A DNA stretch of 33,326 bases from Dysgonamonadaceae bacterium (GTDB taxonomy: Bacteria; Bacteroidota; Bacteroidia; Bacteroidales; Dysgonomonadaceae), in NCBI GenBank assembly GCA_031272205.1, contig JAISUH010000078.1, positions 1 to 33,326 on the forward strand. The letters are read 5' to 3'. The translations under genes were made by a program, and so were the position numbers. Every line of letters begins with the position of its first letter. The first letter of the stretch is position 1. Under the pieces are notes generated by a model, which had not been told where the DNA came from, did not search any database, and saw nothing but the letters and a program-made list of their open reading frames with translations. Positions 9,375 to 22,539 of the stretch are shown here, piece by piece.

Positions 9375-10421
9375 TCAGTTATTTTCCGGCCGCAATTTGC
9401 GAACTACGGCTCCCGTGCGCCACATTTCACTGTCGCGGAGGGCTTTCAACTCTTCTTCGAGTTTCACGCGGTAATCGGGTTGCGAATTGGAGTCGATAGA
9501 ACGTTGCGCCTCGTTTCCGCTGGCTACTTCGTTGTACAGCTTTTCAAAAACGGGCTTGGCCGCATCGTGGAAAGGACCCATCCAGTCGAGCGCTCCGCGT
9601 TGTGCGGTGGTCGAGCAGTTGGCGTACATCCAATCCATCCCGTTGGCGGCGAAAAGCGGCATAAGCGACTGGGTCAGTTCTTCTACGGTTTCGTTGAAGG
9701 CTTCCGACGGGGTGTGGCCGTGTTCGCGAAGCACTTCGTATTGTGCCAATAGCAAACCCTGTATGGCGCCCATCAGCGTACCGCGTTCGCCGGTCAAATC
9801 GGAATAAACTTCGCGTTTGAACGTTGTTTCGAACAAATAACCCGAACCGACGCCGATACCCAAGGCGATAACGCGGTCTTTGGCTTTTCCGGTTGCGTCT
9901 TGGAAAATAGCGTAGCTGGAGTTCAACCCTCTGTTTTCGAGAAACATGGTGCGGAGGCTTGTGCCCGAACCTTTCGGGGCGACGAGGATTACATCCACAT
10001 CGGCCGGAGGGATAATTCCTGTGCGTTCTTTGAAGGTGATGCCGAAACCGTGCGAAAAATAGAGGGCTTTACCCGCCGTCAGATGTTTTTTTACGGTCGG
10101 CCAAACGGTAATCTGTGCCGCATCGGACAACAAATATTGAATGATTGTGCCGCGCTTGCAAGCTTCTTCGATTTCGAAAAGCGTTTCACCCGGCACCCAG
10201 CCGTCGGCAACGGCTTTGTCCCATGTTTTGCTGTCTTTGCGTTGGCCGACGATAACATTAAAACCGTTATCGCGCAGGTTGAGCGATTGTCCCGGACCTT
10301 GTACTCCGTAACCTATAACGGCTATCGTTTCGTTTTTAAGCACTTCACGCGCTTTACTCAAAGGAAATTCCTCGCGGGTAACGACGTTTTCTTCTATCCC
10401 GCCAAAATTCATTTTTGCCAT
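9375..10421 (-). CDS. ilvC: Ketol-acid reductoisomerase
   Basis: IAVIGYGVQGPGQSLNLRDNGFNVIVGQRKDSKTWDKA; LVAPKGSGTSLRTMF; 348 aa; in BCAA operon. Confidence 0.95.
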   Translation of the reverse strand: MAKMNFGGIEENVVTREEFPLSKAREVLKNETIAVIGYGVQGPGQSLNLRDNGFNVIVGQRKDSKTWDKAVADGWVPGETLFEIEEACKRGTIIQYLLSDAAQITVWPTVKKHLTAGKALYFSHGFGITFKERTGIIPPADVDVILVAPKGSGTSLRTMFLENRGLNSSYAIFQDATGKAKDRVIALGIGVGSGYLFETTFKREVYSDLTGERGTLMGAIQGLLLAQYEVLREHGHTPSEAFNETVEELTQSLMPLFAANGMDWMYANCSTTAQRGALDWMGPFHDAAKPVFEKLYNEVASGNEAQRSIDSNSQPDYRVKLEEELKALRDSEMWRTGAVVRKLRPENN

Positions 10422-10485: not shown

Positions 10486-11043
10486 TTAATGTTTGTGCTC
10501 TTTCTTTTCTTCTTCGCGTTTGGAAAGCATATCGCTCAATCGTTCGACCTTCGATTTGGTGATGGCCACACGCCCCGAACGGATAAACTGCAATACGCCA
10601 ATACTTTGGCTTAACTCTTCGAACAAAGCCTGTGTGTCTTTGTAATGCCCTGTTTTTTGAATGACGGTCGCATGTTCGCTAACGTCTAAGATACGGGCAT
10701 TGTGTTTGCGCACCAATTTTTCCACCATATTGGTAGCCAACAGCTTGGATGTTTCTATCTTATAAAGCGCAATTTCCTGATGCACCAATTCGGCGTTGAT
10801 ATTGTAATATGCTTTCAAGATATCGACGCGCTTATCGATTTGGCGCACCAATTTTTTCATCGCTTCTTCGGATTCGGAAAACGCGGTGATGGTGAACTTA
10901 TGAATGCCTTGTATGGCGGAAGGCGATACCGATAATGTTTCGATATTGATCTGCCTGCGCGTGAAGATGGTGGTAATCTGGTTCAAGACGCCGACTGCGT
11001 TTTCGGAGAAAACCGTAATGGTATATAAAGTTTTTTCTTCCAT
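10486..11043 (-). CDS. ilvN: Acetolactate synthase small (regulatory) subunit
   Basis: ACT domain YTITVFSENAVGVLNQITTIFTRRQINIETLSVSPS; directly downstream of ilvB. Confidence 0.93.
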   Translation of the reverse strand: MEEKTLYTITVFSENAVGVLNQITTIFTRRQINIETLSVSPSAIQGIHKFTITAFSESEEAMKKLVRQIDKRVDILKAYYNINAELVHQEIALYKIETSKLLATNMVEKLVRKHNARILDVSEHATVIQKTGHYKDTQALFEELSQSIGVLQFIRSGRVAITKSKVERLSDMLSKREEEKKEHKH

Positions 11044-11055
11044 AATCGTAAAATA

Positions 11056-12780
11056 TTAAATCGTATGACCGTTTCCCAACAAAATATTGGTTACGCAAGT
11101 ACCGGCAGGAATCATCGGATAAACCATTCCTTTTGTTTCCACCTCAACGTCGAGCAGGTAAGACCCTTTGTGAGTCAGCATCTCTTCGATAGCGGCATCC
11201 AAATCCTTACGCTCGGTAACCTTTTTCCCTTTTATCCCGTAAGCATCGGCTATCTTGATGAAATCGGGGTTTTTCATGCGTGTTTCCGAATAGCGTTCGT
11301 CGAAGAACAACTCCTGCCACTGGCGCACCATTCCCAGAAAATTATTGTTCAGCAAAATAATTTTCACGTCAACGCCATGTTCCATAATGGTTCCAAATTC
11401 CTGAATGGTCATCTGCAATCCGCCGTCGCCTACGAAAACGCAAACCGTACGGTCGGGCGCTCCGTATTTCGCGCCGATTGCGGCGGGTAATCCAAATCCC
11501 ATTGTTCCCAAACCGCCGGAGGTAACCATGCTTCGCGTCTGAGTGTATTTGAAATAGCGGGTTCCCATCATCTGGTTTTGCCCCACGTCGGTAACACAAA
11601 TGGCCTTGTTTCCGGTGGATTCCGTTACTTTATTGACTACTTCGCCCATTTTTATCGCCCCTTCCGCCGGATACAATTCTTCTTTAATCACACAATCGTA
11701 CTCTTTCTCGTAGAGCGGTTTAAATTCGTCGATCCAGTCGGTATGGGAATTTTCTTCCATCAAAGCGCTTACCAAAGGTAAGGTTTGTTTTGCGTTGCCG
11801 AGAACTTTTACCGTAGTTTTCACATTTTTGTCCATTTCGGCGCGGTCGATATCGAAATGGATGACCTTCGCCTGCTTGGCATAAGTATTCAAATCGCCTG
11901 TAACGCGGTCGTCGAAGCGCATTCCGATAGCGATCAGCACATCACATTCGTTTGTCTTCAGATTGGGGGCGATGTTTCCGTGCATCCCCAGCATCCCCAT
12001 GTTCAGCGGATGATCGGACGGAAGGGCCGATAAGCCCAAAATGGTGGAACCGAAGGGGATATTCCCTTTTTCGAGGAAAGCGATCGTCTCTTTTTCGGCA
12101 TTGCCGAGGATGACGCCTTGTCCTACCAAAGCCAAAGGCTTTTTTGCTTGGTTGATGAGTTCGGCCGCCTGTTTTATCTTTTCCAAACACGGTTCGGTTT
12201 CGGGTTGATAACTGCGCAGGAAGGTCGTTTTCTCATACGCATAGCCGCACTTTTGGGTTTGCGCGTCTTTTGCGATGTCGAGTACTACGGCTCCGGGTCT
12301 TCCGCTTGAAGCGATATAAAAAGCCCGCGATACCGCCCACGGGATATCTTCCACGCGCCGGATTTGATAGGCCCATTTCGTTACAGGCTGCGTTACTCCG
12401 ATAACATCTGCTTCCTGAAAAGCGTCGGAACCCAATAGCGAAGATGAGACCTGTCCGGAAATAACCACCAAGGGCGTACTGTCCATCATTGCATCGGTAA
12501 TGCCGGTGATGGCATTGGTTGCGCCGGGTCCCGAAGTTACAAGCGCCACTCCTACTTTTTTAGAAACCCTCGCGTAGCCCTGCGCGGCATGCAAAGCGCC
12601 CTGCTCGTGGCGGACAAGTATGTGCTTTATGTCGTTTTTGTGATCGTACAACGCATCGAATACGGGCATGATAGCGCCGCCCGGATAGCCGAAAATGGTA
12701 TCTACCCCTTCGGCCAACAGCGAACGAATCAGAGCTTCGCTGCCCGATAAAACGGGATGGTTCGTATGTTCTTCTTTCAT
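11056..12780 (-). CDS. ilvB: Acetolactate synthase large (catalytic) subunit
   Basis: GSEALIRSLLAEGVDTIFGYPGGAIMPVFDALYD...RHEQGALHAAQGYAR...SGPGATNAITGI; ThDP motif GDGGLQMTIQEFGTIMEHGVDVKIILLNNN. Confidence 0.96.
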   Translation of the reverse strand: MKEEHTNHPVLSGSEALIRSLLAEGVDTIFGYPGGAIMPVFDALYDHKNDIKHILVRHEQGALHAAQGYARVSKKVGVALVTSGPGATNAITGITDAMMDSTPLVVISGQVSSSLLGSDAFQEADVIGVTQPVTKWAYQIRRVEDIPWAVSRAFYIASSGRPGAVVLDIAKDAQTQKCGYAYEKTTFLRSYQPETEPCLEKIKQAAELINQAKKPLALVGQGVILGNAEKETIAFLEKGNIPFGSTILGLSALPSDHPLNMGMLGMHGNIAPNLKTNECDVLIAIGMRFDDRVTGDLNTYAKQAKVIHFDIDRAEMDKNVKTTVKVLGNAKQTLPLVSALMEENSHTDWIDEFKPLYEKEYDCVIKEELYPAEGAIKMGEVVNKVTESTGNKAICVTDVGQNQMMGTRYFKYTQTRSMVTSGGLGTMGFGLPAAIGAKYGAPDRTVCVFVGDGGLQMTIQEFGTIMEHGVDVKIILLNNNFLGMVRQWQELFFDERYSETRMKNPDFIKIADAYGIKGKKVTERKDLDAAIEEMLTHKGSYLLDVEVETKGMVYPMIPAGTCVTNILLGNGHTI

Positions 12781-12805: not shown

Positions 12806-14656
12806 TTAATCCATTATTCTAATTGCTCCCAAATCGGCCGAGCTGACAAGGGCGGCGTATGCTTTCAGGGCTTTCGACACCTGTCTGTCGCGCACCGGTT
12901 TGAACGCTTTATTTCCTTTTATGTTTTCCGCTTCCCTGCGTTTGTCGAGTTCCTCATCGGATATTTTCAGGTTGATGCTTCGCTTGGGAATATCGATCTC
13001 AATCGTATCGCCGTCCCTCACCAAACCGATAGCGCCGCCGGCCGCTGCTTCGGGCGAAATGTGACCGATGGACAAGCCCGATGTACCGCCGGAAAAACGC
13101 CCGTCGGTGATCAACGCGCACTCTTTGCCCAAATGGCGGGCTTTGATGTATGAAGTAGGGTAGAGCATTTCCTGCATTCCGGGACCGCCTTTGGGCCCTT
13201 CATACACAATAACGACCACATCGCCCGACTGCACTTTCCCGTTGAGGATACCTTCGCAAGCGTCGTCCTGCGAATGAAAAACTTGGGCTGTGCCGGAAAA
13301 TTTCCAGATGCTCTCGTCCACACCGGCTGTCTTGACGACGCAACCGTCGAGGGCGATGTTTCCTTTCAGGACAGCCAACCCGCCGTCTTTGCTGTAAGCA
13401 TGTTCCAAGTCGCGGATGCAACCGTTCTCGCGGTCGGTATCGAGCGCGGCATAGCGTTCGTTTTGCGACCCCATCACCAAATTGAAACGCTGTGCGGGCG
13501 CCGAAGAATAAATATCTTTTGCATCTTCCGATACGTCCTGTGTTGTAACGGAATATTTTTCGGCGGCCTCTGCTAACGACATCCCATCGACGCGCCCCGC
13601 CGATGTGTCAATCAAACCGCCTTTGGCCAATTCGCCAAGGATATTCAAAATTCCACCGGCACGGTTCACATCCTGAATGTGGTATTTTTTTGTGTTGGGC
13701 GCAACCTTGCAGATGCAGGGAACTTTGCGCGACAAAGCGTCTATATCGTCCATTGTAAAAACGACTTCCGCTTCACGGGCAATTGCCAACAGATGCAGAA
13801 TGGTATTGGTGGAACCGCCCATCGCAATATCGAGCGACATGGCATTGAGGAAAGCGTTCCGCGAGGCAATGCTTCTCGGTAAAACGCTCTCGTCGCCGTC
13901 GGCATAATAACGATACGCATTTTCTACGATTTGCCGCGCCGCTTTTTTGAACAGTTTTATCCTGTTGGCGTGTGTAGCAACGATGGTGCCGTTTCCGGGC
14001 AAAGCCAAGCCGATAGCCTCGTTCAGGCAGTTCATTGAATTTGCCGTGAACATTCCCGAACAGGATCCGCAGGTAGGGCAAGCCAAGCGTTCGAGATCCA
14101 GCACTCGTTTATCGGAAACGGATTCGTCGGCCGACTCAATCATAGCGTCAATCAAATCCACTTGTTGGCCGTCTATTTTCCCGGCTTCCATCGGCCCTCC
14201 CGATACAAAAATCGAAGGAATGTTCAGTCGCATGGCCGCCATGAGCATTCCCGGAGTTATCTTGTCGCAATTGCTGATGCAAACCAAAGCGTCGGCCTTG
14301 TGCGCATTGACCATGTATTCCACCGAATCGGCGATTAAGTCGCGCGACGGAAGTGAGTACAGCATGCCGTCGTGTCCCATGGCAATGCCGTCGTCCACGG
14401 CAATCGTATTAAACTCGGCGGCAAAACACCCCAGTTTCTCAATTTCGGCTTTCACCACCTGCCCTATTTCGTGCAGATGCACGTGTCCCGGCACAAATTG
14501 CGTGAACGAGTTCGCTATTGCGATAATCGGTTTACCCATTTGTTCTTCGGTCATGCCGTTGGCATGCCAAAGCGCCCGCGCTCCCGCCATAAGACGCGAA
14601 GAACGGTCGCCCCTGAAAGGTTTTTTATTCGTAGATGAATGCTCCTTGTCTGCCAT
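12806..14656 (-). CDS. ilvD: Dihydroxy-acid dehydratase
   Basis: [77 protein letters not shown]. Confidence 0.97.
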
Positions 14657-14691: not shown

Positions 14692-15762
14692 TTAAAGCGC
14701 ATGTATGAATTTTACAATCCATTCGCCGACTTCGCTTGTCGAGTAGGCTGTTGCACCGTCGGCAATATCTTCGGTAACGATGCCGGCATCCATACTGGCG
14801 GTTACGGCCTGACGGATAACGGTAGCCTCTTCCGTCCGGTTAAAGGCATATTCGAACATCAACGCGGAAGAAAGGATGGTGGCTAACGGATTCGCGATAT
14901 TTTTTCCTGCGGCTTGCGGATAAGAGCCGTGAATGGGCTCGAAAACCGAGGTGTGCAGACCGATGGACGCCGAAGGCAACATGCCCAGCGATCCGGTAAT
15001 AACGGATGCCTCATCGGTAAGGATATCGCCGAAGAGGTTTTCGGTAACCAGCACATCGAAACTTTTCGGCCATTGAATGATGCGCATGGCTGCATTGTCC
15101 ACAAACATAAATTCGGTCTCTATTTCGGGATATTGCGGGGCAATTTCCTGCGCGATTTGCCTCCACAGCCGCGACGTGGCGATAACGTTCGCCTTATCGA
15201 CAACGGTAACTTTCTTGCGGCGTTGTCCGGCAAATTTGTAGGCCAAGTGCAGGATGCGCTCCACCTCTTCGCGGGTATAAACGCAAGTGTCGTAAGCGGT
15301 GTTACCGTCTTCGCTGCGTCCTTGCGGACGGCCGAAATACATTCCGCCGGTCAGTTCGCGGATGCAGACAAAATCGGCACCGTTTACCAAGTCGGCGCGA
15401 AGCGGCGATTTATGAATCAGCGACGGGAAAGTACTGACGGGGCGGATGTTGGCATACAATCCCAAATTTTTGCGCATTTTCAGCAAACCTTGTTCGGGTC
15501 GGACTTTGGCATTCGGGTTGTTATCAAATTCGGGCGATCCGATAGCGCCGAAAAGCACCGCGTCGGACTCCATACAGATTTTATGCGTCTCATCGGGATA
15601 CGGATTTCCCGTTTGGCGGATGGCGCAGGCGCCGACAATTCCTTCTTTATACGTTAATTCGTGTCCGAATTTTTCACAAACGGCTTTTGTTACGTCCAAA
15701 GCCTGTTTCACAATTTCAGGGCCGATTCCGTCGCCCGCAAGCACAGCTATATTTAATTTCAT
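14692..15762 (-). CDS. leuB: 3-isopropylmalate dehydrogenase
   Basis: [21 protein letters not shown]...[11 protein letters not shown]...LTGGMYFG...[27 protein letters not shown]...[17 protein letters not shown]. Confidence 0.96.
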
Positions 15763-15780
15763 TATGATAGATATTTTTTG

Positions 15781-17334
15781 TTATGGCAATTGAAGATTTT
15801 TAAACGTCGGGATATTTCCGCTCTCAATCATATTCAGCATTTTCATCGTCGCCTTAATGGCAGCGGCGGTTTGATCGACATCCAATCCCCTTGTTTTAAA
15901 GACTTTACCGTCGAACCTCCAGGTGATGATGGTTTGCACGTAGGCATTTGTTTTCCCTCCCGGAGGAATAACAACCACATAATCGAGCAAATCGGGAATG
16001 GGTTTACCCAGCGATTGGTAAATTTTATACATTGCTTTCGAAAATGCGTGGTATTGTCCATCGCCCGCCGCGGTCTGCTGATATTCCTCCCCTTTTATGG
16101 AGAGTTTCACGGTCGCTGTAGGGCGCAGTCCGTCGGTCAGCGTCAGCGAATAATTGAGCATGCGGATATCCTGATTTTCGACGCCGTTTTTCAGGATGTC
16201 GGAAATGATATAGGGCAATTCGTCGATGCTGACCGATTGTTTTTTGTCGCCCAGTTCGATAACGCGGGCGGTTACTTTTTTCATCGTATCTTCATCAATA
16301 TCGATACCCAATGCTTGGAGATTTTTGATGATATTCGCTTTGCCGGATGTTTTCCCCAAGGCATATTCGCGTTCACGGCCAAAGCGTTCGGGTGAAAGAT
16401 AGCTTGCGTACAGGTTTCTTTTTTTGTCCCCGTCGGCATGAATTCCCGCTACCTGCGTGAAAACATTGTCGCCTATGACCGGTCGGTTGTTGGGGATGCG
16501 CACGCCCGAATAACTCTCCACAATCTTGCTGATGTGGTAAACGTTTTGCTCCTTGACCTTGGTTTGCAGTTTCAAATGGTCGTGAATGACCGCGATAACG
16601 CTGGTCAGCGGCGCGTTTCCGGCACGTTCTCCCAATCCGTTCACAGTTACATGCACGCCGTGAACGCCCGCTTTTACGGCTTCGAAAACGTTAGCCACAG
16701 CAAAATCGTAATCGTTATGGGCATGAAAATCGAAATGCACTCCGGGATAACGGGAAATCATTTTTTTGCAAAATTCTGCCGTGTCGTCAGGGCTCAGAAC
16801 GCCAAGCGTATCGGGGAGCATGAAACGAAGCACGGGCTCATTTTTCAACCCGTCCATCATCTGAAAAACGTAATCTTGCGAATCGCGCATCCCGTTCGAC
16901 CAGTCTTCAAGATAAATATTCACCTTGATTCCCATCCGCTGCGCATAACCTATCACCTCTTTGATATCTTTGAGATGATCCTCGGCCGTCTTCCCAAGTT
17001 GGTATTTGCAATGCTTTTCGGAGCCTTTGCAAAGGAGATTTACCACGCGGCATCCGGCATTTTTTATCCATTCGAGCGAAACGGTGCCATCTACAAAGCC
17101 GAGGACTTCCACCCGATCGAGGTGTCCATGCTCGGTAGCCCATTGCACGACTTTTTTCACCGATTCGTATTCGCCGTCCGACACGCGGGCAGACGCTATT
17201 TCTATTCGGTCCACGCACAATTCTTCGAGCAACAGGCGTGCGATACTGACTTTTTCGGGGGAAGCGAAAGATACTCCCGAAGTCTGTTCGCCGTCGCGAA
17301 GCGTGGTGTCCATAATTTCAACCGAAGTCTTCAT
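15781..17334 (-). CDS. Second alpha-isopropylmalate synthase / (R)-citramalate synthase-like protein
   Basis: [57 protein letters not shown]...HFDFHAHNDYDFAVANV. ORF track starts at 17379, which overlaps leuD; the internal ATG at 17334 removes the overlap and is the more likely start. Confidence 0.85.
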   Translation of the reverse strand: MKTSVEIMDTTLRDGEQTSGVSFASPEKVSIARLLLEELCVDRIEIASARVSDGEYESVKKVVQWATEHGHLDRVEVLGFVDGTVSLEWIKNAGCRVVNLLCKGSEKHCKYQLGKTAEDHLKDIKEVIGYAQRMGIKVNIYLEDWSNGMRDSQDYVFQMMDGLKNEPVLRFMLPDTLGVLSPDDTAEFCKKMISRYPGVHFDFHAHNDYDFAVANVFEAVKAGVHGVHVTVNGLGERAGNAPLTSVIAVIHDHLKLQTKVKEQNVYHISKIVESYSGVRIPNNRPVIGDNVFTQVAGIHADGDKKRNLYASYLSPERFGREREYALGKTSGKANIIKNLQALGIDIDEDTMKKVTARVIELGDKKQSVSIDELPYIISDILKNGVENQDIRMLNYSLTLTDGLRPTATVKLSIKGEEYQQTAAGDGQYHAFSKAMYKIYQSLGKPIPDLLDYVVVIPPGGKTNAYVQTIITWRFDGKVFKTRGLDVDQTAAAIKATMKMLNMIESGNIPTFKNLQLP

Positions 17335-17341
17335 CTTCTTT

Positions 17342-17938
17342 TTAGTAAGCGAATACACGCTGTTTTTCGTAGGATTCAATTTTGTTTTTGTTCGACAGCA
17401 GGAAGTCGATATCGTCTAACCCGTTGAGCAAACACGTTTTTTTGTAGGAATTTATTTTGAACGATTCGCTTTTTCCTGTTTTGTTGTCCGTGATGGTTTG
17501 CGCTTCGAGATTCACAGTCAGCGTTGTTTTGGGGTCTTCTCCGATGCTCGTAAATATCCCGGCCAAAAATTCGGGACTGATGATAACGGGCAATATACCG
17601 TTGTTTAGCGCATTATTGCGGAAAATGTCGGCAAAGAAACTCGATACAACGACTTTGAATCCGTATCCGGCTATTGCCCATGCGGCATGTTCGCGGCTGG
17701 ACCCGCTGCCGAAATTTTTTCCGGCAACCAATATTTGTCCGCTGTACAGAGGGTTGTTTAACACAAAATCTTTTTTAGGTTCACCCGACTTTTCGTAACG
17801 CCAATCGGCAAAAAGATTGTTACCAAAACCATCGCGGGTTGTAGCTTTGAGAAACCGGGCAGGAATTATCTGGTCGGTATCGACATTCTCGATAGGCAGC
17901 GGCACGACTGTACTTGTCAGTTTTGTGAATTTTTGCAT
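17342..17938 (-). CDS. leuD: 3-isopropylmalate dehydratase small subunit
   Basis: [28 protein letters not shown]...[46 protein letters not shown]. Confidence 0.96.
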
Positions 17939-17995: not shown

Positions 17996-19414
17996 CTAAA
18001 ACGCTCTGGGGTCAGTAATCTTACCCGTAACTGCTGCTGCTGCGGCAACCAAAGGTCCGGCCAATATTGTGCGGGCGCCCGGACCTTGACGTCCTTCAAA
18101 ATTGCGGTTGGAGGTCGAAACGGCATATTTTCCGGCCGGCACTTTGTCGTCGTTCATCGCTAAACAAGCCGAGCAACCGGGTTGACGCAGTTCGAAACCG
18201 GCCTCTTCGAGAATTTTATCGATGCCCTCCGCCTCGATTTGTTTGCGTACCTGCCAACTTCCCGGAACAAGCCATACCGTTACACGGTCGGCTTTGCGTT
18301 TTCCCTTTACGAAGTTGGCGAAAGCGCGGAAATCTTCGATGCGCCCGTTAGTGCAACTGCCGACGAACACGTAATCAATGGGTTTGCCTTCGAGTTTTTC
18401 GCCCGCAGAAAAACCCATGTATTGCAGCGATTTCTCGAAGGATTTCTTTCCGGCCTCGTCAATATCTTTTAAGGCCGGAATAGAGCCGTTTATCGACATT
18501 CCCATTCCGGGATTGGTGCCGTAAGTGATCATCGGTTTTATTAAAGCGCAATCGAAATGCACTTCCTTATCGAAATTCGCGCCTTCATCCGTTTTCAGCG
18601 TTTTCCAATACGCTAATGCGGCTTCCCATCTTTCCCCTTTCGGGGCAAATTCGCGCCCTTTCACGTAATTGAAGGTGGTATCGTCGGGTGCAATCAACCC
18701 GCCGCGGGCGCCCATCTCGATACTCAAATTGCACAGTGTCATGCGTTCTTCCATCGACAAACCGCGGATAACGGATCCCGAATATTCCACAAAATATCCG
18801 GTTGCGCCGCCTGTGGTCAGTTGGGAAATCATATACAAGGCGATATCTTTTGCGCCGACACCGTCCTGCAATTTACCCTCGAAATGGATGCGCATGGTTT
18901 TCGGACGGGTTTGCAGGATGCATTGCGATGCAAGCACCATTTCCACCTCGCTGGTGCCGATACCGAAAGCTATGGCGCCAAAAGCTCCGTGAGTGGAGGT
19001 GTGGCTGTCGCCGCAGACGATGGTCATGCCCGGCTGGGTATAGCCGTTTTCGGGGCCGACAACATGAACGATTCCGTTTTTCGGATGGCCCAACCCGTAG
19101 TAGGTCAGCCCAAAATCCGCAGCGTTTTTAGCCAATGTATCCACCTGAAAACGGGAAACTTCGTCGCGGATAGGCCGGTCTTGATTCATCGTTGGGATGT
19201 TGTGGTCGGCGGTCAATGTGGTCTGTTGCGGACGAAAAACGTTCAGCCCGCGCTTGCGCAATCCCGCAAAAGCCTGTGGGCTGGTTACTTCGTGACACAA
19301 GTGACGGTCGATATACAACTGTGTTGGCCCGTCTTGGACGCTTGTAACCACGTGAGCGTCCCATATCTTATCGAAAAGGGTTTTGGCGGTTTTATTTTCT
19401 GATTCTGATGTCAT
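17996..19414 (-). CDS. leuC: 3-isopropylmalate dehydratase large subunit
   Basis: [14 protein letters not shown]...[20 protein letters not shown]...[31 protein letters not shown]...[18 protein letters not shown]...[10 protein letters not shown]. Confidence 0.97.
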
Positions 19415-19453: not shown

Positions 19454-20941
19454 TTATTCTACAAATTTATTTACGGCGTCAATAAACGCTTCGACCGATG
19501 CGGCAACGATATCGGTGTTGGCCGAGAAGCCGTAAAACAGCGAGCCTTTGTGTTCCACCTGCATGTGCACTTTCCCCACATCGTCGCTGCCGCGATTGAT
19601 GGCTTGTATCAGAAATTCCTGAATAACGGTTTCGCGGCTGATAATTTTCTTTACCGCTTTGATAGCCGCATCCACCGGCCCGTTTCCGGTTGCGGATGCT
19701 TCGAAATGTTCCCCCGCAATATTTAATCCGATGCTGGCCACGTGGCGAATACCGACGCCACAGGTTACTTGCAGGTACTCCACTTTGATGCGGTGCGATT
19801 TGGTTTGGCGGCCAATCATGGAAAGAATGTCGTCGTCTTTGATGTCTTTTTTCTTGTCGGCCAGTTCGAGGAATTTCTGGTAGGCATCGTCCAATTCGTC
19901 GTTTTCGAGATGAACGCCCAGCAGGTTCAGACGGCTTTTCAATGCCGCGCGGCCGCTGCGTGCGGTGAGCACAATGGCGTTATCGTCGATGCCTACGTCT
20001 TTCGGATCGATGATCTCATAAGTTTGCACGTTTTTCAACACGCCGTCCTGATGGATTCCCGATGAGTGAGCGAAAGCGTTGCGCCCTACAATCGCCTTAT
20101 TCGGCTGTACAGGCATGCTCATCAACGCCGACACCAAACGGCTGGTGGAATATATTTTCTGTGTGTTGATATTGGTGTCGTAACCCAGTTCTTTGTGGCT
20201 TTTCAATGCCATCACGACCTCTTCGAGCGAAGTGTTTCCGGCGCGTTCGCCAATACCGTTAATGGTGGCTTCCACCTGCCGGGCGCCGTTCAACACGCCG
20301 GCCAACGAATTAGCGGTAGCCATACCCAAATCCTGATGGCAATGGGTGGAGAGGATGGCGTTCTTCATATCCACGTGGTCGATAAGGTATTTTATTTTTG
20401 CGCCGTATTCCTGCGGAAAGCAGTAACCCGTAGTGTCGGGAATGTTTACCACGGTAGCTCCTGCATCGACAACGGCCTGCACCACACGCGCAAGGTATTT
20501 GTTCTCGGTGCGTCCGGCATCTTCGGCATAAAATTCCACGTCGTCCACATAATTACGCGCAAGTTTCACGGCGTAAACGGCGCGTTCGATGATCTCTTCG
20601 GGATTGGAGTTGAACTTATACTTAATATGGAAATCGGAAGTCCCGATTCCCGTATGAATGCGTTTGCGCTTGGCATATTTAAGGGCTTCGGCCGCCACTT
20701 CGATGTCTTTGTCCACAGCGCGTGTAAGGGCGCAGATCACCGGCCATGTAACCGATTTGGAAATTTCCACTACGGAATTGAAATCGCCCGGACTCGAGAT
20801 GGGGAAACCCGCTTCTATCACATCAACGCCCAACAATTCCAATGCCTTGGCAACCTGAATCTTCTCAATCGTATTCAATTGACATCCGGGAACTTGTTCT
20901 CCGTCCCGCAAAGTGGTGTCAAAAATATATACTTTTTCCAT
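19454..20941 (-). CDS. leuA: 2-isopropylmalate synthase
   Basis: [50 protein letters not shown]...[41 protein letters not shown]-terminal regulatory domain present. Confidence 0.96.
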
Positions 20942-20984: not shown

Positions 20985-21010
20985 CCTTCCCCACATGTGT
21001 GTGAGAAAGG
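20985..21010 (-). terminator. Attenuator terminator hairpin in the leuA leader
   Basis: Transcript sense: CCUUUCUCACA-CACA-UGUGGGGAAGG then UUUUUUUCUU. 11-bp stem with two G-U pairs, 4-nt loop, T7 tract, about 44 nt before the leuA ATG. Confidence 0.85.
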
Positions 21011-21063
21011 CTTCAATCTTTTCAACTATATCATCTTCATATTGATACGTCAATCTCACACAC
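20997..21063 (-). promoter_or_regulatory. Candidate antiterminator, mutually exclusive with the leader terminator
   Basis: Transcript-sense GTGTGTGAGA (21063-21054) is perfectly complementary over 10 bp to TCTCACACAC (21006-20997), which includes most of the terminator 5' arm. Confidence 0.75.
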
Positions 21064-21121
21064 TGAATGACTCCAGTAGTAGAATGGAAATGACGAGAAT
21101 ATCAATATTATTGTTGTTCAT
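21056..21121 (-). CDS. BCAA operon leader (attenuator) peptide, 21 aa
   Basis: ATG AAC AAC AAT AAT ATT GAT ATT CTC GTC ATT TCC ATT CTA CTA CTG GAG TCA TTC AGT GTG TGA = MNNNNIDILVISILLLESFSV*; 10 of 21 residues are Ile/Leu/Val; located between the putative promoter and leuA. Below ORF-track cutoff. Confidence 0.8.
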   Translation of the reverse strand: MNNNNIDILVISILLLESFSV

Positions 21122-21267: not shown

Positions 21268-22539
21268 TTATCCGAAATCGTCGAACATCAACATTTCGGG
21301 CGGAACGCCAAGATTGTCGAGCATCCCCTTCACGGCGTTAGCCATCGGACCGGGGCCGCACATGTAGTATTCGATATCTTCGGGCTCGTCGTGGTTTTTC
21401 AGGTAATTGTCGAAAATGACCTGATGCACAAAACCCGGAGTATATTTCACGCCTGCTGCGTCGGCGGCGGGATCGGGACGGTCGAGCGCAAGGTGGAACG
21501 AGAAATTCGGAAAATCTTTTTCCAACTGCAAAAAGTCTTCGAGATAGAAAACCTCATTCAACGCGCGTGCGCCATAGAAATACGACATTTTGCGATCGCG
21601 AACTTGAAGGGTTTTGGTCAAATGCATAATCTGTGCGCGAAGGGGCGCCATTCCCGCACCTCCGCCAATCCACATCATCTCTCTTTTGGAATCGAAAATG
21701 GGGTGAAAATCACCGTAAGGCCCGCTCATGAGTACTTTATCGCCCTCTTTGAGCGAGAAAATAAACGACGATGCGATACCCGGAGGAACCTGTTTGAACG
21801 AGCCTGTGGCGCGGTCGAAAGGCGGCGTTGCGATGCGTACATTGAGTGTAATGCGGTCGCCCTCTGCCGGATAGTTTGCCATCGAATAGGCGCGGATGGT
21901 TTCGGCGGTGTTGGTGCTGGTCAAATCCCACATCTTGTTTTTGTCCCATTCGGGGCGGAAACGGTCTTCCACAGCGTAATCGCGGTACGAAACGCTGTAT
22001 TTCGGGATTTTTATCTGCGCATAACTGCCCGGCACGAAATTCATGTGCTCGCCCTGCGGCAGCGCAACGATAAACTCTTTGATGTAGGTCGAAACATTGC
22101 GGTTCGACACGACTTCGCACTCCCATTCTTTGACGCCAAAAACCTCTTCGGGAATCAAGACGGACAAGTTTTCCTTTACCTTCACCTGACAACTCAAACG
22201 CCAATGCGCCTGTTGTTCTTTCCGACTGAAATGGCCTTTTTCCGTCGGCAAAATCTCTCCACCGCCTTCTATCACCCGGCAACGGCATTGCCCACAGGTT
22301 CCGCTGCCGCCACAGGCAGAAGAAAGGAAGATATTTTGTGATTGCAAGGTGTTCAACAATGTACCTCCCATTGGCACATCCAAATCTTTCGAACCGTTGA
22401 TTCCGATATTCACATTACCGGACGGTATCAATTTCGATTTGGCCACCAAAATAATCACAACGAGAATCAGGATGATCACCAAGAAGACCACAACGCTTGC
22501 AACAATCGTCAATCCTGCCGCATTCAACAATACACTCAT
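21268..22539 (-). CDS. nqrF: Na+-translocating NADH:quinone reductase subunit F
   Basis: 2Fe-2S ligands SACGGSGTCGQCRC; FAD/NAD(P) reductase module RAYSMANYP...GGGAGMAPLRAQIMHL...YMCGPGPM. Confidence 0.96.
   Translation of the reverse strand: MSVLLNAAGLTIVASVVVFLVIILILVVIILVAKSKLIPSGNVNIGINGSKDLDVPMGGTLLNTLQSQNIFLSSACGGSGTCGQCRCRVIEGGGEILPTEKGHFSRKEQQAHWRLSCQVKVKENLSVLIPEEVFGVKEWECEVVSNRNVSTYIKEFIVALPQGEHMNFVPGSYAQIKIPKYSVSYRDYAVEDRFRPEWDKNKMWDLTSTNTAETIRAYSMANYPAEGDRITLNVRIATPPFDRATGSFKQVPPGIASSFIFSLKEGDKVLMSGPYGDFHPIFDSKREMMWIGGGAGMAPLRAQIMHLTKTLQVRDRKMSYFYGARALNEVFYLEDFLQLEKDFPNFSFHLALDRPDPAADAAGVKYTPGFVHQVIFDNYLKNHDEPEDIEYYMCGPGPMANAVKGMLDNLGVPPEMLMFDDFG

Follow-up and report, generated by a model that had tools for sequence, protein, structure and literature searches.

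A nine-gene operon for branched-chain amino acid (BCAA) synthesis, leuACD-cimA-leuB-ilvDBNC, is very probably controlled by a ribosome-mediated transcription attenuator that senses the supply of charged Leu, Ile, and Val tRNAs. The operon lies in a 33,326-nucleotide contig of a Dysgonamonadaceae bacterium (JAISUH010000078.1; hereafter, the window), and the source genome assembly is 83% complete. The mechanism that we propose is of a classic, already known type and is strongly supported by comparative evidence. The anatomy of the leader, its conservation, its covariation, the spacing of its codons, and its predicted folding behavior are shown here for the window and its relatives.

An Ile/Leu/Val-rich leader and a competing terminator precede leuA

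All features described here are on the minus strand. As the first-pass annotation had proposed, the nine genes are co-directional and separated by short gaps. The first gene is leuA, encoding 2-isopropylmalate synthase (19454-20941; TIGR00973, 657 bits). It is followed by leuC (17996-19414), leuD (17342-17938), a LeuA-like or citramalate synthase (CimA-like) gene (15781-17379; NF042433, 650 bits, below the cut-off of 950), leuB (14692-15762), ilvD (12806-14656), the genes for the large and small subunits of acetolactate synthase, ilvB (11056-12780) and ilvN (10486-11043), and ilvC (9375-10421). The leu and ilv operons are fused behind a single leader in the window. A GTDB sister genome, a Dysgonamonadaceae metagenome-assembled genome, encodes a LeuA that is 95% identical.

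The leader region, with its ORF, pairing arms, and terminator, occupies positions 21121-20978 between nqrF and leuA. Its ORF of 21 codons, MNNNNIDILVISILLLESFSV, runs from 21121 to 21056 and ends in a TGA stop codon at 21058-21056. Ile, Leu, or Val make up 10 of the 21 residues (P = 0.008 for this richness by itself), including the control run I-L-V-I-S-I-L-L-L, which contains rare CTA Leu codons. There are no Trp codons in the ORF. The 5' arm of the antiterminator, GTGTGTGAGA (21063-21054), overlaps the leader stop codon and is perfectly complementary to the 3' arm, TCTCACACAC (21006-20997), 47 nt away. The 3' arm is itself part of the 5' arm and loop of an intrinsic terminator, CCTTTCTCACA-CACA-TGTGGGGAAGG followed by T7 (21010-20978), in which 21010-21000 pair with 20995-20985 to form an 11-bp stem with the loop CACA. 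This terminator was found by a terminator scan, for which the expectation from shuffled sequence was 0.1 per shuffle. The folding z score of the leader was -4.4. The three codons of the Leu run, CTA CTA CTG, start 19, 16, and 13 nt 5' of the antiterminator arm. Thus, the elements read from the sequence in the first pass were borne out, namely, the Ile/Leu/Val-rich ORF before leuA, an arm at its stop codon complementary to a site 47 nt downstream, an 11-bp terminator overlapping that site, and a Leu run about 11 to 19 nt before the arm.

The gene directly upstream of the leader, nqrF, is co-directional and ends at 21268, and a terminator would be expected there. We therefore weighed whether the terminator just ends readthrough from the nqr genes, with leuA having its own start and the leader being nonregulatory. 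We regard this as highly improbable. A promoter-like element is present between nqrF and the leader, consisting of TTTG (21189-21186), 20 nt, and then TACTTTGC (21165-21158), which we take to resemble the Bacteroidota TTTG/TAnnTTTG promoter consensus. Comparison of upstream sequences showed -7 elements like that of the window 5' of the leaders in relatives as well. In addition, leuA begins only about 40 nt after the terminator, the arrangement recurs 5' of leuA in many genera, and covariation links the upstream arm to the terminator region.

The position of the leader also bears on whether the leader peptide sets leuA expression through translational coupling or reinitiation, without transcription termination. 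Short leader ORFs do occur near start codons in Bacteroidetes, and a role in aiding reinitiation has been proposed for them (PMC4833913). However, the distances in that report peak at 11 to 14 bp, whereas the leader stop codon in the window lies 114 nt before leuA, and a strong intrinsic terminator stands between the two. We consider this explanation less probable still than readthrough from nqr.

The leader is conserved upstream of leuA in relatives

For 80 relatives, found in GTDB genomes and in a few cases taken from whole genomes, we compared up to 400 nt 5' of leuA; leaders were called by an automated search, and the loci that it missed were then inspected. An Ile/Leu/Val-rich leader and a terminator are kept in about 74 of the 80 LeuA relatives, and the layout was found in Dysgonomonadaceae, Bacteroides, Phocaeicola, Parabacteroides, and Apibacter, the last of which is a flavobacterium. 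The core of the peptide differs by group: ILVISILLL in Dysgonomonadaceae, IIISSLILLW in Dysgonomonas, HILLCGIIILL in Bacteroides, and NILGIILIL in Apibacter. A recognizable leader was absent from six of the 80 upstream regions (L085, L086, L107, L112, L099, and L101), the last two having only about 145 nt of upstream sequence, and the antiterminator arm is damaged in L081. In L112, a promoter-like element is joined straight to the terminator before leuA, and the leader ORF and antiterminator arm are missing; to judge by its sequence, this locus appears to have lost the attenuator through a natural deletion.

The alignment shows constraint on both the peptide and the RNA. Toward the start of the leader, most insertions and deletions have lengths divisible by three. 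Divergence in the core was 0.28 per synonymous site and 0.14 per nonsynonymous site, only about a twofold gap, since constraint also acts on the RNA. All 43 aligned sequences carry the same core terminator string, CCTTTCTC, and the GTGAG of the arm is almost invariant. Within the terminator, CCTTTCT (21010-21003 in the window, and also in relatives) is identical to the 3' end of 16S rRNA in Bacteroidota; its invariance in the window and relatives exceeds what pairing needs. Conservation of the leader ORF and of the competing stems in close relatives had been named at the outset as one of two observations on which the proposal would stand or fall, and both are conserved in the leuA upstream alignment. 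On this comparative evidence, the device is conserved across much of Bacteroidales.

The antiterminator helix covaries

The same 43-sequence alignment was examined for covariation, as had been suggested in the first pass, and the antiterminator helix does covary. Six of its 10 pairs have changed on both sides. Two-sided changes filled 43 cells, compared with 15.6 expected, a count reached by none of 500 shuffles. The shuffles ignore the relatedness of the sequences, so more weight rests on a control in which helices slid by 1 to 3 columns gave 1 to 17 two-sided cells and on lineage-specific examples. The arm and its partner are GTGTGTGAGA and TCTCACACAC in the window, GGAAGTGAG and CTCACTTCC in Bacteroides, AGGATGAG and CTCATCCT in Apibacter, and GAAGCGGG and CTCGCTTC in L114. 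The TTCC half of the Bacteroides partner sits in the terminator loop, where constraint is possible only through antiterminator pairing. The terminator helix showed zero covariation in this alignment because it hardly varies. These patterns argue that the mutually exclusive antiterminator is maintained by selection.

Rare Leu control codons and a nearly constant codon-to-arm spacing

CTA accounts for 38% of Leu codons in the leaders, compared with 1.5% in the genes of the window and 2.8% in the leuA genes of relatives, an enrichment of more than tenfold. GTC and ATT are likewise enriched in the leaders. Rare CUA Leu control codons are also a feature of E. coli leuL. RNA pairing may contribute to this codon bias.

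In the 72 distinct leaders, the distance from the last Ile, Leu, or Val codon to the arm core GTGAG has a median of 17 nt, with quartiles of 17 and 18, a measure that is independent of any assumed ribosome footprint. The spacing from the last Ile or Leu codon to the arm is 17 to 19 nt in most relatives; in Bacteroides, spacing was often scored from an isolated Val codon (10 nt) and is 19 nt when taken from the Leu run. The end of the stop codon varies in position, between 6 nt before and 29 nt after the start of the arm core. From these positions, it seems that a fixed distance to the arm has been selected for the control codons and not for the stop codon.

Predicted folding of nascent RNA switches with the position of the ribosome

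We folded nascent RNA with the transcript ending in the terminator loop and with the positions covered by a ribosome masked. We assumed a footprint reaching from 15 nt upstream of the A site to 13 nt downstream, and the folding results depend on this choice. In the window, the antiterminator probability was 0.91 to 1.00 with the A site on codons 5 to 16 and at most 0.01 from E17 to the stop codon; L16 is the last residue of the Leu run. Across the 72 distinct leaders, the mean antiterminator probability over the Ile, Leu, and Val codons exceeded 0.8 in 56. With a ribosome at the stop codon, it was below 0.1 in 70 of the 72, which is largely a consequence of the masking itself; L113, which fails this test, was probably misanchored in scoring. 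Five leaders (L036, L044, L052, L072, and L080) have a weak predicted antiterminator even with a stalled ribosome. In these constrained models of nascent RNA, the proposed behavior was reproduced: a stalled ribosome frees the arm, and a ribosome at the stop codon hides it.

When the complete terminator was present in the window RNA, equilibrium folding gave the terminator at every ribosome position. The switching expected from folding with the 5' arm masked was thus recovered at the predicted codons in nascent RNA but not in full-length RNA at equilibrium. Since the terminator wins at full-length equilibrium, a working switch would have to be kinetic, or cotranscriptional.

The description of the leader as a minimal two-structure version of attenuation did not hold in the window. 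In free window RNA, a third, long hairpin is predicted to take in the arm (21108-21072 paired with 21067-21039), and the antiterminator probability is 0.00. Not every leader shows such masking: the ribosome-free probability was below 0.2 in 39 of the 72 leaders but exceeded 0.8 in 25. With such a sequestering, or anti-antiterminator, hairpin, an untranslated leader would terminate transcription by default, as classical three-structure attenuators do.

We propose the following model, in which translation of the leader, coupling of RNA polymerase to the ribosome, a response to amino acids, and actual termination are inferred. When charged tRNAs are scarce, the ribosome would stall in the Ile/Leu/Val run, especially at the rare CTA Leu codons, and would cover the 5' strand of the sequestering hairpin, leaving GTGTGTGAGA free. 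The free arm would then pair with the emerging TCTCACACAC ahead of synthesis of the terminator 3' arm, and RNA polymerase would enter leuA. With an ample supply, the ribosome would reach the stop codon and cover the arm, and the terminator would form. If the leader were not translated, it would fold onto the arm, and termination would again be the default.

Related leaders occur upstream of other amino acid operons

We built a covariance model from the leader alignment and searched 396 genomes of the class. There were matches at an E value of at most 0.001 in 79 of the 396 genomes, many of the weak ones being bare terminators. The window's own genome held no second strong match. Its weak matches L166, L167, and L169 had no leader or a terminator alone, and L005, a second DNA match, had no leader or terminator nearby and was rejected as a chance match.

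Reading the matched loci revealed this layout at ilvD in genomes resembling Bacteroides and Dysgonomonas, in which the leu operon and the ilv operon each have a leader, and at ilvE, ilvB, thrA, hisG, and trpB in other Bacteroidota. The codons fit the operon: Thr and Ile at thrA, HHHH at hisG, WW at trpB, and Ile and Val at ilvD. The ilvD attenuators of this family (L146-L148 and L150-L155) have Ile/Val/Leu-rich leaders before a separate ilv operon. Among L158 and L176-L179, a thrA-type aspartokinase gene is preceded by a Thr/Ile-rich leader, MTINNTTIITIITTGI..., and hisG by a four-His leader, MNTLAINMHHHHYFCA. The window's own genome has a trpB leader with WW, MNRILLNEYWWRPCNFQQVVR (G000:C98:28992-29121; L170), which scored 39.7 bits with the Bacteroid-trp model, below the cut-off of 49.

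Some loci carry two leaders in succession. In L187, L188, and L189, which belong to one family, two Asn-rich leader ORFs, e.g., MKKLNNNNLFNNQF and MKNMKTNINNNLNNNPPPEEGK, each with its own terminator downstream, precede asnA, encoding aspartate-ammonia ligase; from their sequences, these are apparent tandem asparagine attenuators. In the related genomes of L192, L193, and L194, a sulfite/nitrite-reductase-like gene is preceded by two leaders that contain Met codons and CCCC (Cys) runs; each leader has its own terminator, and the two are apparent tandem cysteine attenuators. L173 and L186 have tandem Ile-rich leaders, MKNIINIAVIIIIIIIR and then MKNSIQNSIIISIIIIRIT, before ilv genes.

The Rfam search that the first-pass annotation had called for gave no matching family for the window leader. 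With the window and eight relatives, no credible family was found at gathering or relaxed thresholds; a Phe_leader match scored 15.6 bits (cut-off, 55), which is at chance level. Leu_leader (RF00512) did not match the window at the gathering threshold or at E values up to 5, and Bacteroid-trp (RF01692) did not match the window leu leader at gathering or relaxed thresholds.

These results bear on whether the same stems serve a ribosome-independent element, such as a riboswitch, a protein-binding leader, or a T-box-like element, with the ORF being incidental. A competing terminator and antiterminator would suit any sensor, and the almost invariant CCTTTCTC and GTGAG could mark a binding site. 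However, none of the riboswitch, T-box, or leader families in Rfam reached threshold in the window and eight relatives, whereas the ORF, its Ile/Leu/Val content, its rare codons, and the codon-to-arm spacing are all conserved. Moreover, related leaders switch their codons with the amino acid of the operon. This explanation is a little more probable than readthrough from nqr and is itself very unlikely, and we favor attenuation by a translating ribosome.

We lean toward a broader reading of these loci, held with less confidence than that of the window leader, in which leaders before leuA, ilvD, ilvE, ilvB, thrA, hisG, trpB, asnA, and the sulfite/nitrite-reductase-like gene, including the tandem Asn- and Cys-rich leaders, would form an underdescribed attenuator regulon across much of Bacteroidota. 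Its common layout would be an amino-acid-rich ORF, an arm at or immediately after the stop codon, and often a CCTTTCTC-like terminator, and the window leader would be its Bacteroidales leu member.

Relation to known attenuators and implications

The enteric leu, ilvGMEDA, his, and thr attenuators share with the window leader a peptide rich in the regulated amino acids, an antiterminator and terminator that exclude each other, and an arm that is sequestered when the leader is untranslated, which in the window is a prediction. They differ from it in that there is no sequence or Rfam match, that the window has one mixed Ile/Leu/Val ORF for a fused nine-gene leu-ilv operon, and that its antiterminator arm spans the leader stop codon. 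Experiments support BCAA attenuators in Listeria (Rli60; PMC5864092) and Corynebacterium (the ilvBNC leader; PMC11857589), and an ilv attenuator has been reported in S. aureus (PMC5794164). These leaders also combine a BCAA-rich peptide with a terminator/antiterminator switch for ilv-leu genes, but they come from other phyla and have other sequences, and the window leader is a prediction from sequence.

In the literature that we found, the nearest precedents within the phylum are the Bacteroid-trp leader RNA motif (Weinberg 2010; PMC2864571) and a prediction for Flavobacterium psychrophilum (PMC9723704). The former is likewise a Bacteroidota leader with an amino-acid-rich peptide and a terminator but has Trp codons and another sequence. 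The latter describes, in general terms, strong clues for leader peptide attenuation before amino acid biosynthesis operons, in a flavobacterium rather than in Bacteroidales. We found no paper on Bacteroides leu or ilv leaders; a comparative survey by Lopatovskaya et al. 2010 (cited in PMC4833913) may already list some.

This group has no BCAA leader in Rfam. Conservation of a leu/ilv attenuator among Bacteroidales of the gut and the environment, Bacteroides fragilis among them, would account for the way in which these bacteria tune BCAA synthesis. It would also imply transcription-translation coupling, which has been little studied in Bacteroidota.
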